56,034 bases of DNA, from the NCBI GenBank assembly GCA_016219645.1, contig JACRLR010000053.1, forward strand, positions 1 to 56,034, given 5' to 3'. Shown here in pieces: positions 17,115-21,501 of the stretch (position 1 is its first letter; every line of letters begins with the position of its first letter). A program made the translations under genes and the position numbers. Below the pieces are notes generated by a model, which worked only from the letters and a program-made list of their open reading frames with translations, was not told the origin of the DNA and did not search any database. This DNA is from Nitrospirota bacterium (GTDB taxonomy: Bacteria > Nitrospirota > Nitrospiria > Nitrospirales > Nitrospiraceae).

Positions 17115-17247
17115 CAAGATGCCGAAGAACTCCACCTGCCTCCAACGCGTGTGGCAATGTTTTCAACCGTCGTTCTGCTTCCATTGACAAGAAAAATTGG
17201 CCCGCCTAGAATCCGGTGAACTTTTCCACTTCCACAATGTCATCATT

Positions 17248-17895
17248 ATGACGCTCCTTGAACTCAGCAAATCACTGCACGACTGCCAACGTTGCAAGCT
17301 CGCGAAGATGGGCCGGACTCAAGTCGTATTCGGTGTGGGGAATCCTCACGCCAGCGTGATGTTCGTCGGGGAAGCGCCCGGTTTCAACGAAGATCAGCAG
17401 GGAGAGCCGTTTGTCGGGGCAGCGGGAAAACTCTTAAACGACTTGCTGCAATCGGCTGGATTGTCACGCAGCGATATCTACATCGCCAACGTGATTAAGT
17501 GCCGCCCCCCAAACAACCGCGACCCGGAACTGGATGAAGTCGAAACGTGCAAGCCGTTTTTGATGCAACAGATTGCGATGATCCGTCCGAAACTGGTCTG
17601 CACGCTCGGTAACTGGGCAACGCAAACGCTATTGGAGAGAAAGGTCGGAATTACAAAAGTGAAGGGGCAGGCGTTCTACATGAAAGATTTCGTGATCTTT
17701 CCCCTACTCCACCCGGCTGCAGCGCTCCATCAAGGCAACTTACTCGATACACTGAAGGCAGATTTTAAGAAACTCAAAGAATTTCTCGACAAGAACACAA
17801 AACCGGCCGAACCAGCCGCAGCAACCGCGGTTGCCACACCCACACTACACATCGAACCGCCACAGCCAGCACAGTTGGATCTGTTCGGGTCATAA
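17248..17895 (+). CDS. Family 4 uracil-DNA glycosylase (4Fe-4S)
   Basis: From ATG 17248 the 215-aa protein starts MTLLELSKSLHDCQRCKLAK. The four cluster-binding cysteines of family 4 are Cys13, Cys16, Cys85 (VIKCRPP) and Cys101. The active-site motif is GEAPGFNEDQQGEPFVG (41-57), and LLHPAAAL carries the second motif histidine. The enzyme removes uracil from DNA, starting base-excision repair. The last 40 residues are a Pro/Ala-rich tail ending in QLDLFGS, which resembles a short clamp-binding motif. An upstream in-frame start at 17197 is less likely. The family is certain. Confidence 0.9.
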   Translation: MTLLELSKSLHDCQRCKLAKMGRTQVVFGVGNPHASVMFVGEAPGFNEDQQGEPFVGAAGKLLNDLLQSAGLSRSDIYIANVIKCRPPNNRDPELDEVETCKPFLMQQIAMIRPKLVCTLGNWATQTLLERKVGITKVKGQAFYMKDFVIFPLLHPAAALHQGNLLDTLKADFKKLKEFLDKNTKPAEPAAATAVATPTLHIEPPQPAQLDLFGS

Positions 17896-17976: not shown

Positions 17977-17991
17977 TCATAGGAGATGCAG

Positions 17992-18243
17992 ATGAGAGCA
18001 CACATCGTTCGGATCGGCAACTCTCGTGGAATTCGCCTTCCGAAGACATTGCTTCAGGAAGCTCAGCTGGAGGATGAAGTCGAACTTCAGGCCGAGCCTG
18101 GCCGCATCCTTATCTCCAAAACGGCTAAACCCCGGGCCGGTTGGGGCGAAGCCGCCCGGCGCATGCGGGAACGTAACGAAGATCGCCTCCTCGACCCATC
18201 GACGTCGACTCGATTCGATAAGGAAGAGTGGAAGTGGCGGTAG
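17992..18243 (+). CDS. MazE-like antitoxin (AbrB/SpoVT fold)
   Basis: The 83-aa protein starts MRAHIVRIGNSRGIRLPKTL, the standard swapped-hairpin DNA-binding domain in which the IGNSRGIRLPK segment contacts DNA. The C-terminal half (about 45-83) is charged and probably disordered until it binds the toxin. The second ATG (17992) is preferred over 17986 because AGGAG sits six bases before it. The toxin gene starts 16 bases inside its 3' end, the usual overlap for a coupled pair. A palindromic operator lies just upstream. Confidence 0.85.
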   Translation: MRAHIVRIGNSRGIRLPKTLLQEAQLEDEVELQAEPGRILISKTAKPRAGWGEAARRMRERNEDRLLDPSTSTRFDKEEWKWR

Positions 18244-18572
18244 AGCACCCACATGCTACCCGCGGCGATGTATATCTTATTGAACTTGATCCTACCCGAG
18301 GCAGTGAAATCAGAAAAACAAGGCCCTGCCTGGTCATTTCACCCGATGAGCTGAATCAGCATCTGCGAACTGTCATCGTCGCGCCGATGACCACAGGAGG
18401 GCAGGCCTACCCCTGGCGTGTACGCTGTCGCTTCCGTGATCGCGCGGGGTTTGTCGCAATGGACCAACTGCGCACGGTTGATAGCGAGCGGCTTAGCAGG
18501 CGGCTCGGACGAATCGCTCCCGGCACCCTCGCGGCAGTTCTTGCGGTCTTGCAGGAAATGTTCACGCCGTAG
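18228..18572 (+). CDS. MazF/PemK-type mRNA interferase toxin
   Basis: This 114-aa protein (GTG start at 18228) has the MazF core: RGDVYLIELDPTRGSEIRKT (12-31) and RPCLVISPDELN. VIVAPMTTGG (the conserved Pro/Thr strand) and FVAMDQLRTVDSERL, with the Asp-Gln pair typical of the family, follow. Such toxins cut mRNA in a sequence-specific way when the antitoxin is degraded. The residues usually needed for cleavage (Arg in the S1-S2 loop, Thr in S3) are present. It overlaps the antitoxin gene. The pair stands at the edge of a cassette-bearing accessory patch. Confidence 0.88.
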   Translation: MEVAVEHPHATRGDVYLIELDPTRGSEIRKTRPCLVISPDELNQHLRTVIVAPMTTGGQAYPWRVRCRFRDRAGFVAMDQLRTVDSERLSRRLGRIAPGTLAAVLAVLQEMFTP

Positions 18573-19035
18573 ATACCCCATTTGCAGCACACCGGCCAAA
18601 GGCGGATGTCCGTTAGAGGACACTCTCTCATCATCTCTCTGGAAACAACCATTTCGGACTCAACAGCGCAGAGGAAGGCCTCGGCTGACGAAGGGCGGGC
18701 AGCTCCGGCTTCGCCATAATGCGATGGAGCGCGACTGCTATTGTGCGTTTCTCTCTTGGCCGTGCGCCTTAGGGGACCAGAAGAACGGCGCCACGGCACC
18801 TGGTTTGGCAATTGACCGGCATATGGCACCATGGCGAAAGCCTCCGTGCCCATCCCTTCCATCCGAGGCTCGCTCAAGAGTTGAACCCTACGCAGTTATG
18901 ACGTTATGATGCCGGCCTGTTTAGCATACCAATGCTGTGTTGCTGATAGAGTTGACAAGCCTATGGACCGCCAGAAGAATTGCGCGAGAGTTGGCGTGCG
19001 ACATCTGCGTACTATGCCGATCAGTGTGCTCAATA
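18573..19035. other. Gene-poor stretch between the toxin gene and the cassette array
   Basis: No convincing reading frame lies here. There is a small hairpin, TGTCC-GTTAGA-GGACA, near 18609-18624. At 18959 GCCTATG is followed by ACCGCCA/TGGCG complementarity, which could be the ruined left half of an attC site whose right half is GTTAGGC at 19036. The rest shows no feature that I can support. Confidence 0.4.
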
Positions 19036-19042
19036 GTTAGGC
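19036..19042 (+). repeat. Integron core-site heptamer GTTAGGC (left boundary of cassette 1)
   Basis: GTTAGGC fits the recombination consensus GTTRRRY exactly and lies 12 bases before the ATG of the HNH gene, where a cassette junction is expected. Its left partner is poorly preserved (GCCTATG near 18959). Alone it would be weak evidence; the better attC-like site after the HNH gene makes it meaningful. Confidence 0.45.
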
Positions 19043-19054
19043 CTTTCAACGATC

Positions 19055-19624
19055 ATGGCAACGCGCACATCAAAAGTTAAGCCTCGCGAAAGACAGAAAC
19101 TGCCTCTCAGCACAGTTACGTTGGTGCTCACCGAAGCGGGCTACCGCTGCGCAGTACCAACTTGCCGAGGAATTCTTGCACTCGACATGCATCATCTTTG
19201 GGAGGTGAGTGGTGGTGGAGGTGACGACCCAGCCAACCTTATTGCCTTGTGCCCTACCTGTCACGCCCTGTATCACCGAGGCACGATCTCGCAGGGGTCA
19301 ATCTACGCTTACAAAGCAATGCTCGTGGCAATCGGCCGCGCCTTCGATGTCGAGGCAATTGATCGCTTGCTATTTCTCAGCATGTGGCCAAAAGACTATC
19401 TGGTTCTGTCAGGCGATGGCGTACTGCATTTCTCAAGGCTTATTGCTGCTGGGTTAGTAGCGGTGGAGCAAAAAGCTAATAATGCGTGGCAGCTTGTTAC
19501 CTATGCCGTAAACATTAGCGATAAAGGCCGAATGCTCATTCATGCATGGCAGCAAGGCGATCGAACCGCTATCGCAAGTGCTCTAGAACGTCCAATACCA
19601 GAGCAAACTGATGCGCCGGCCTAA
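19055..19624 (+). CDS. HNH-motif protein in an apparent integron cassette
   Basis: The protein (189 aa) has a zinc-bound HNH nuclease motif. Cys32 and Cys37 (RCAVPTC) come first, then the catalytic region DMHHLWEVSGGG (44-55), Asn61 (NLIALCPTCH), Cys66 and Cys69, and His74. The order Cys pair, HH, N, Cys pair, H is complete, so nuclease activity is plausible. Residues 85-189 form a helical and mixed domain without a known motif, possibly a regulator or winged helix. Its stop codon TAA lies inside GCCTAAC, the left core of an attC-like site, as is typical of cassette genes. A defence or mobile-element role is possible but not shown. Confidence 0.75.
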   Translation: MATRTSKVKPRERQKLPLSTVTLVLTEAGYRCAVPTCRGILALDMHHLWEVSGGGGDDPANLIALCPTCHALYHRGTISQGSIYAYKAMLVAIGRAFDVEAIDRLLFLSMWPKDYLVLSGDGVLHFSRLIAAGLVAVEQKANNAWQLVTYAVNISDKGRMLIHAWQQGDRTAIASALERPIPEQTDAPA

Positions 19625-19687
19625 CATGGCGGTCAACACGGACCTTGCGCATAAAGCCGCGCAAGGCCGATTACCTATACGTTAAGC
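19619..19687 (+). repeat. attC-like recombination site
   Basis: The left core GCCTAAC (19619-19625, fits RYYYAAC) and right core GTTAAGC (19681-19687, fits GTTRRRY) bound 69 bases. Inside, CGG-A-CCTTGCGC pairs with GCGCAAGG-CCG, leaving one unpaired A, the kind of extrahelical base that steers integron integrases. The inner loop is ATAAAGCC. The stop codon of the HNH gene lies in the left core. Size, cores, imperfect hairpin and bulge all fit an attC site. Confidence 0.75.
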
Positions 19688-19759
19688 GTCATGCAAAGCG
19701 TCTCGGCTAGTCTAGTATGCTGGTAGTGTCTCAGTTTGAAAATGTGCGGAAGACTTCTT

Positions 19760-20269
19760 ATGAAAGAGAAAATTGACAAGACGCGCGCCCGAAAATATCC
19801 GCCAGACCTTTTGATTGCAATGTTTCGCAAAGCGGCAGCGCTTCGCAACGAGATGGTTGAAGCAGGATTTACAGACAATGGCGGAGCTATTCACAGTGCG
19901 GAACGCATTCTGAATTTACTTGGACTACGGCTCAACTATCCTGAACTCAGCCACCTCAATAATCTCAGAAGTTTTAAGAACGCCACATTTTCAGTTGAGG
20001 CTTGGGAACTACATCAAGCTGGAGATAAAGTGCTCATTGAACATGTGGCGCCCATTCGCCATCTCACTCAGATGGCCATAGACAAAATCGACCAAAAACT
20101 GAGCGACGCTCAATTCAAAGCATTTGTAAAACGTCGTTATAAGCTCGTACTTCTATCGCCGACTGAAACGCTGCGGTTGAATAGGCAAAACCGATCAAAG
20201 ATGAGTCGTGATCGCCTCAGTAAAGCCGGTATTCAGCTAGCAGCGAGGAAGGCTGCACATGACGCCTAA
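19760..20269 (+). CDS. Unknown protein in the second cassette
   Basis: I do not recognise this 169-aa protein. It starts MKEKIDKTRARKYPPDLLIA (ATG 19760; an alternative in-frame start at 19736 adds eight residues and neither has a clear ribosome site). It is basic and mostly helical, with no membrane span, signal peptide or catalytic motif that I can name. Base composition is more AT-rich than the neighbours (runs such as GAAAATTGACAAG), which suggests transfer. Its stop TAA lies inside GCCTAAC at 20264-20270, mirroring the HNH gene. Being an orphan in a cassette is normal for integron cargo. Confidence 0.65.
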   Translation: MKEKIDKTRARKYPPDLLIAMFRKAAALRNEMVEAGFTDNGGAIHSAERILNLLGLRLNYPELSHLNNLRSFKNATFSVEAWELHQAGDKVLIEHVAPIRHLTQMAIDKIDQKLSDAQFKAFVKRRYKLVLLSPTETLRLNRQNRSKMSRDRLSKAGIQLAARKAAHDA

Positions 20270-20335
20270 CAATGTGCTCCATCCGATATCCCTGCCGTTT
20301 CGCTGCAGGGACGCGGCTGATCTTGATCGTTATCC
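20264..20335 (+). repeat. Second attC-like site, partly degraded
   Basis: The left core GCCTAAC (20264-20270) is perfect and contains the stop codon of the cassette gene. CCCTGC and GCAGGG form an inner stem around CGTTTCGCT, with CCG/CGG outside. The right core GTTATCC (20329-20335) deviates from GTTRRRY at one position, so this site may be worn or inactive. Confidence 0.5.
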
Positions 20336-20728
20336 CTCCCGCGCCCAGTGGGGATGGTGAGCGATCTGAGACTTGTGAGGGGTCGCTTCAGGAGCAGTTC
20401 CACCTCGGCATCGCGTCTGTCTCAACAATTCCTTCTAAGCTTGCTGACCTTCTCCCCAACGACGCCCGCTGTTGCTGATGCGACATCAGCGCCATACTGA
20501 GTCTCGCCGTAGTGAAGTCATGCGGCCCGCTTCTAGCGGGTGGCACAAACTGTTCGACGCTCCATTCGACCATCGGTCGGAACGGAGCTAGTTTCTGGGC
20601 CAAGCGTGACTGAGCGTGAGGGCGAGCCAGCAGGGCGTTGACAAGAGCGGTAGCAGCAGCGGGCTGGGAGCGGGACAGGCACCGCCGAAGACGGCTGAGC
20701 CAGTCCCCTTGGGCTCAATTTATTTTTC

Positions 20729-20931
20729 AAAGTCGCTTGGGAGGATCGTTGCCGCCGATGACCGGATGAATCGGGACACAACTTGCCGCAGCGTGCGGCC
20801 GTTGCTTTCCAGTTGCAACGGCGAAGCCTGTACTGTTTGAGGCTCGGCGAGTTTACAGGCTGAGAGCGCGCCAGGCGTAGTTGGGTGATTCAGGAGGTCG
20901 TGTGGCGGCACGCATCCTCCCGAGCGACTTT
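20729..20931. repeat. 203-bp unit with 28-bp terminal inverted repeats, MITE-like
   Basis: The ends 20729-20756 (AAAGTCGCTTGGGAGGATCG on) and 20904-20931 are inverted copies with four mismatches in 28 bases. Inside is a smaller hairpin, CCGTTGC/GCAACGG, near 20799-20821. No reading frame in it looks real. The phrase CTCGGCATCGC occurs on both sides (20410 and 21004), hinting at a larger duplicated or rearranged patch. The whole gene-free gap 20336-21045 holds nothing else I can support. Confidence 0.55.
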
Positions 20932-21045
20932 TCCGAATTTCCGAAGGTTTCCGCTCGGCGGAGCCCGAACGGGTCGCTCTGGGAGGTGTGGGAGCGGTTG
21001 AGCCTCGGCATCGCACCACGACCGAGTCTAAAACGCCGGTGGGGA

Positions 21046-21501
21046 TTACGCCTTGGATGTGATCGTTGAGGAAGGGTCTGAATCCGCGGCCTCACCGTTT
21101 TCTTCCTCGGCAGGCTTTTCTTCTTCCGGCACGTCGAACCACTGCACCAGCATCTCGTCCCACCAGGTCTCGTCGATCTCCTTCCCGGGATCAATCCCGA
21201 GAAACGCGACATCGTCCTTCGTCACATCCGAACCAACCAGCTGAGGCTGGAACTTGGCCCGATCGATGACTTCCTTGGTCGCGTACCCACCAATGATCCA
21301 GGAGTCAGGATCGGCGCGGCGGGATTTATAGGCCTTGAGCCCGAGCTTGAGATACATAAAGATCTGCTGTTGCGTAGGCTCCGCGACGCCGGATTGCGGC
21401 AGCCCCAGGGTCTTCTCAATCTTCTTGCGCCAATGCCGATCATCGTACCGAGACGTGATCAACTGGAGCATGGTTTTTCCCTGTTCGGCATCAAGCGGCA
21501 T
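21046..21501 (-). CDS. Hypothetical protein, 151 aa
   Basis: I cannot place this protein. It is acidic and soluble, with a helical first half (MLQLITSRYDDRHWRKKIEK, 11-30) and an unusual aromatic stretch, EIDETWWDEMLVQWFDVPEE, near 108-127. The last 30 residues are low-complexity acidic (EEEKPAEEENGEAADSD), a disordered tail. No signal peptide or membrane span is present. It lies 17 bases downstream of a dienelactone hydrolase gene on the same strand and is probably co-transcribed with it. The coding call is solid; the function is unknown. Confidence 0.7.
   Translation of the reverse strand: MPLDAEQGKTMLQLITSRYDDRHWRKKIEKTLGLPQSGVAEPTQQQIFMYLKLGLKAYKSRRADPDSWIIGGYATKEVIDRAKFQPQLVGSDVTKDDVAFLGIDPGKEIDETWWDEMLVQWFDVPEEEKPAEEENGEAADSDPSSTITSKA

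Follow-up and report, generated by a model that had tools for sequence, protein, structure and literature searches.

Clusters of attC sites without an integrase (CALINs) are a recognised class of element, proposed to be degraded integrons; a large survey counted 2,961 CALINs and 2,760 complete integrons, the attI site is poorly described outside class 1, and, for Nitrospira-like genomes, the two CALINs reported are both from Ca. Nitrospira inopinata (PMC9024848). Loss of intI is known from Xanthomonas, where cassettes are kept (PMC12444791), and from Treponema (T. phagedenis), where attC sites are kept (PMC3607928). Mobilisation of CALIN cassettes in trans has been stated as possible (PMC9668308).

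The locus described here lies in a 56,034-nucleotide stretch of a Nitrospirota genome (the window, by which we mean the whole stretch that was analysed), in which positions 19036-20335 hold a two-gene integron cassette array (Table 1). The description of these bases in an earlier, sequence-only reading holds. Its interpretation as an attC cluster lacking an integrase is borne out by covariance model matches, by the complementarity of the cassette ends, by the absence of a detected intI, by the lack of both genes in relatives, and by a homologue of gene 2 that is a cassette elsewhere, but the locus is very probably not a stray cluster; rather, it appears to be a decayed integron, in which the platform (attI, Pc-like promoter, and cassettes) is kept and intI is lost to approximately 11 codons. 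As in the CALINs of IntegronFinder (PMC9024848), there are two attC sites, cassettes, and no integrase gene nearby or elsewhere; a CALIN has at least two attC sites close together, and those of the window are 645 bp apart, the second being weak (E 0.29). However, whereas the CALIN definition does not refer to an attI, a promoter, or a stump, the window array has retained its attI together with a promoter-like sequence and a stump of intI.

Table 1. Features of the cassette array and its upstream flank, in window coordinates.
Feature	Position	Strand	Description
Dispersed intergenic repeat, ~195 bp	18674..18868	+	Sharp right end CATCCGAGGC abutting the intI stump; flank, outside the integron proper
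intI 3'-end remnant	18866..18901	+	Putative last 11 codons, from alignments and translation; start overlaps the repeat end
attI region	18866..19042	+	Homology to solo attI copies and to DNA 3' of intI in relatives
Pc-like promoter	18952..18980	+	TTGACA 18952-18957, 17 nt, AAGAAT 18975-18980
attI core	19006..19042	+	Crossover between G19036 and T19037
Cassette 1	19037..19681	+	645 bp; G|TT ends; own-end R''/R' complementarity 7/7
Cassette 1 gene	19055..19624	+	189 aa, HNH-domain protein; Pfam HNH 1.4e-7
attC1	19619..19687	+	Covariance model 26.7 bits, E 8.7e-4; hairpin on the recombinogenic bottom strand
Cassette 2	19682..20329	+	648 bp; G|TT ends; own-end complementarity 6/7
Cassette 2 gene	19742..20269	+	175-aa protein; alternative starts 19736 or 19760
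attC2, last attC	20264..20335	+	Covariance model 15.2 bits, E 0.29; weak alone

Both genes stop inside a GCCTAAC core, as the sequence-only reading had noticed: the stop codon of gene 1 (19622-19624) lies within the core at 19619-19625, and that of gene 2 (20267-20269) within the core at 20264-20270. Like integron gene cassettes generally, the two units have G|TT ends and an R'' complementary to their own R'. The integron crossover falls in G|TT, so that in an array the R' that comes after an attC is part of the following cassette; R'' is therefore expected to match the R' at the start of its own cassette. The R'' of cassette 1 (GCCTAAC) is complementary at 7/7 positions to its own-start R' (GTTAGGC), and at 6/7 to the adjacent R' in the array (GTTAAGC). 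In a set of 19 first cassettes, of which relatives supplied 18, R''/R' complementarity is higher at a cassette's own ends than in shuffled pairings (P 2.5e-4), with eight perfect own-end matches vs. two perfect array matches; the test errs on the conservative side, since one row (L078) is shifted out of register by a base.

For attC sites, we used a covariance model built for the present analysis, which differs from IntegronFinder's own; its 23 training sites, none from the window, come from class 1 integrons on plasmids, a Gemmatirosa plasmid array, and the host's relatives (nine sites). The model matches exactly two sites in the window at E<=10, attC1 and attC2, and attC1 is its sole match in the 3.65-Mb genome at E<=5. 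The earlier claim of an attC at 19619-19687, with GCCTAAC and GTTAAGC ends, an imperfect hairpin, and an unpaired base, thus agrees with a significant model score and with the predicted fold: the bottom strand adopts an attC shape (7-bp R arm, spacers, L arm, and unpaired base; z -2.65), whereas the minimum fold of the top strand leaves the R arms unpaired. The bottom-strand hairpin is more stable in the reconstituted circle (-18.2 kcal/mol) than in the array (-14.7 kcal/mol). The second site, attC2, had not been delimited in the sequence-only reading; its R' (GTTATCC) continues into the chromosomal flank. A fixed-pattern attC scan proved too loose, yielding false pairs in the window, and was replaced by the covariance model. 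No Rfam family matched at gathering scores. On plasmid 1 of Gemmatirosa kalamazoonensis (L055), well over ten similar attC sites, most of 94-99 nt, occupy ~13.6-24.8 kb, and the array adjoins an intI 58% identical to that of the relative G135.

The GTTAGGC heptamer at 19036-19042 does lie 12 bases 5' of the gene 1 ATG (19055), as previously read, but its identity requires correction: what it closes is an attI that contains a promoter-like sequence, and no further attC ends here. As a candidate for a region ending in a further attC, 18930-19043 gives no stable hairpin and no model match, and its homology is to attI. By homology, a putative attI thus adjoins the first cassette, as in a complete integron. 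Approximately 175 nt ending in GTTAGG recur at many loci in relatives, with different genes after them. When as many as 3 mismatches are allowed, the 28-nt attI core has 72 occurrences, spread over 42 of the 147 family genomes (reversed control, 0); it has no exact match in viral contigs. At L011, L012, L163, and L168, a weight matrix made from solo copies locates a core on the strand of intI and 136-168 nt beyond its 3' end, with scores of 16-48 bits vs. at most 4 bits in 155 kb of shuffled sequence. On a 4.7-Mb contig of G250, an intact intI is followed by an attI with the exact core, and then by a cassette with a 45.7-bit attC; this attI (C1:2946945-2949434, L218) is split by a ~1.3 kb insert flanked by repeated CTGGGGATGG, probably a transposase insertion, as read without a family search. 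In these integrons, intI points toward attI and the arrays lie beyond it, which accounts for the near absence of cassette arrays when the relatives were searched 5' of intI. Of 45 other attI copies, 18 have a same-strand attC match in the 1.5 kb downstream (two of these 18 loci had supplied training sites) and two have one upstream; in the remaining 27, the present model finds none in the 1.5 kb downstream. Several solo attI copies at different loci occur in genomes with no detected intI (six in G275, five in G200, and four in G292).

The Pc-like hexamers of the window match the consensus at 10 of 12 positions, although a promoter scan does not score them above shuffled sequence. A pair of TTGACA-like and AAGAAT-like hexamers with 17-nt spacing is present 60-62 nt 5' of the core in 32 of 46 attI copies, and it is plausible, judging from this conservation, that the pair represents Pc.

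A functional intI, as a complete integron has, was not found in the window or in the rest of the genome, where a search for an integron integrase gave nothing over the curated TIGR02249 cut-off and the best two genes are XerC/XerD-like; the sequence-only reading had likewise described the array as lacking an integrase. What appears to be left is an 11-codon stump, RLAQELNPTQL*, which aligns in frame to the intact ALVQGLSPSQL* with six identical residues, a call that rests on alignment with longer stumps in relatives. Upstream of the attI copies in those relatives, intI is intact, present as large fragments, reduced to C-terminal stumps (residues 256-315, 269-315, 295-315, and 298-315, for example), or missing, and remnants that reach the C-terminus end ~140-170 nt before the attI core. 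At a threshold of E<1e-30, intI is matched in 10 of the 42 core-bearing genomes and in none of the other 32; in the window's genus (32 genomes), 17 have the attI core and two have intI, with most of the family genomes compared being drafts. Matches to the attC model at E<=0.1 occur in 25 of the 32 genomes of the genus, approximately three being expected by chance. The earlier remark that little has been described of integrons in Nitrospira-like genomes is fair for the literature, but among the relatives that we searched integrons are common.

From these comparisons we infer the following course. The locus would have started as a chromosomal integron with intI upstream of attI and pointing toward the cassettes; an IntI would have joined in two circular cassettes at G|TT, as the exact junctions suggest; and intI, as comparison with relatives shows, was deleted to its last ~11 codons, leaving attI, the Pc-like promoter, and the cassettes. 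Transcription from Pc would probably run through the HNH gene into the gene of cassette 2. With no intI in the genome, the array would now be fixed unless an integrase acts in trans.

The cargo of cassette 1 is, as the sequence-only reading proposed, a predicted HNH protein: it scores 32 bits against PF01844 (curated cut-off 21.4), and the nearest solved domains to its HNH domain are in McrA proteins. It has no full-length relative in plasmids, no relative in viral contigs, and no orthologue in 40 relatives of the host, in which there are weak HNH-domain matches only. The cassette 2 protein belongs to no family in Pfam, NCBIfam, PHROGs, or PADLOC; a search of the 146 other genomes of the family did not find it, and no phage relative was found. 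Proteins with 42-61% identity over most of its length occur in Proteobacteria and Acidobacteriota. In Rhodanobacter sp. ANJX3 the relative (L189) lies within a dense chromosomal array of >10 attC sites, with attC sites immediately 5' and 3' of the gene, and in an uncultured proteobacterium (L190) an attC-like site is also present 3' of it. Because these relatives adjoin attC sites, they provide independent evidence that gene 2 is cassette cargo, and they answer, for gene 2, the question raised by the earlier reading of whether the cassette proteins occur next to attC sites elsewhere. Other relatives are found in integrative conjugative elements of Klebsiella (L049 and L215). The predicted structure of the cassette 2 protein is a confident model (mean pLDDT 84.6) with weak fold matches only, the best being to the T5 SciA endonuclease (Z 4.9), and a Foldseek search of the PDB gave no significant match. 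Two motifs, EH..P and N..NR, are invariant in the protein family, and two of 19 members give a GmrSD_C signal that is marginal (E 0.09). That the protein may be a divergent HNH-type nuclease is our guess, and not a finding.

The array is located in a region that is syntenic across the genus, from a uracil-DNA-glycosylase-family gene (17197-17895) to a hypothetical gene (21046-21501). Immediately 5' of the array is a MazE/PemK-like toxin-antitoxin pair (17986-18572); it belongs to a hotspot, bounded by conserved genes, that differs in content from species to species. The repeat that abuts the intI stump (18674-18868) has copies at many other loci in relatives, with unrelated sequence after each; further dispersed intergenic repeats are present at 20935-21018 and 20664-20928, the first with at least five more copies in the genome. 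Both cassette genes are missing in relatives, so that the conservation in place that would have spoken against a cassette context, as the earlier reading had foreseen, was not encountered.

The window, G296, and G307 share an identical repeat-to-stump junction at the syntenic locus, and yet their first cassettes are unrelated, encoding the HNH protein in the window, and a T5orf172-domain protein and an unknown protein in G296 and G307. The presence of different cassettes on a shared stump-attI junction suggests, with moderate confidence, that cassettes were exchanged after the loss of intI by an integrase acting in trans. Alternatively, the different cassettes could have reached the shared stump-attI when the locus was transferred from one species to another or underwent homologous recombination, which we regard as somewhat improbable. 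In a tree of the downstream genes the window groups with G216, and not with G296 and G307, a grouping that keeps transfer of the locus or recombination in its flank in consideration, and the dispersed repeats flanking the array could serve such recombination; however, the junction of each first cassette falls exactly on the G|TT of attI, and G296 has an intact intI on another contig. Exchange by an integrase in trans could be extended to the view that attI-promoter modules that have shed their integrase persist as dispersed docking sites for cassettes, up to six per genome, and exchange cassettes via integrases elsewhere in the genome or from outside, thereby forming a non-autonomous integron system across species; we advance this tentatively and consider it rather unlikely.

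Other explanations concern the platform itself. The genome is a draft of 71 contigs with contamination of 4.31, and an intI located elsewhere could be missing from the assembly, so that a complete integron might appear to lack its integrase only through assembly or binning; this is very improbable, given that unbroken sequence, with no intI in it, connects attI to the toxin-antitoxin pair and the uracil-DNA-glycosylase-family gene upstream, and that the same loss is seen in many relatives. Insertion of cassettes at attG sites, which are neither attI nor attC, has been described in the literature (cited in PMC12901181), and the lack of intI in the genome would suit single insertions by an outside integrase at such a non-classical site in a locus that was never an integron; this is scarcely credible here, where the upstream sequence is attI-like and conserved, is linked to intI in relatives, and carries an intI stump. 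Dispersed repeats are common around the locus, but there is negligible probability that an integron is read here by chance, from hairpins that belong to terminators or to generic repeats, considering the specificity of the attC model, the enrichment of attC downstream of attI copies, the R-box complementarity, the linkage to intI, and a terminator scan that found none.

Delta-attI sites are known from class 1 integrons. In the delta-attI-type cassettes of mobile integrons, attachment-site fragments can lie beside cassettes (PMC12901181), as in G330 (L110, contig C126), where, around the attI-core copy at 870 on the - strand, a short attI-core fragment comes directly after an attC and precedes another cassette; the window instead has a full-length attI with a promoter-like sequence upstream of the array, and no fragment inside it. 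The Treponema chromosomal integron (PMC3607928) resembles the window in order and orientation (intI, attI, and cassettes, with intI transcribed toward attI), but here attI survives, the decay forms a series across the family, and several solo attI copies are possible per genome. The chromosomal integrons and CALINs of Xanthomonas (PMC12444791) are similar in the lineage-wide loss or truncation of intI with cassettes kept, but have a different attI and locus; moreover, the cassettes of X. citri pv. citri are uniform after the loss (PMC12444791), whereas here they differ between species on one junction.

CALINs and the loss of intI are thus already known, but the combination of a kept attI and promoter with stumps that shorten by degrees within one family is undescribed as far as we found; a literature search that lay mostly outside subscription sources gave no account of solo attI sites accompanied by such a graded series of intI stumps. 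The origin of CALINs as degraded integrons has been argued mostly from the absence of intI. In this family the decay can be traced through intact intI, large fragments, short stumps, 11 codons, and nothing, at a near-constant distance to attI and the promoter-like sequence. The analysis also provides a concrete attI sequence for a lineage in which we found none described, by which integrase-less arrays can be found there by sequence. If the different cassettes at the shared junction do reflect an integrase acting in trans, an integron would need no integrase of its own to stay a working capture site.
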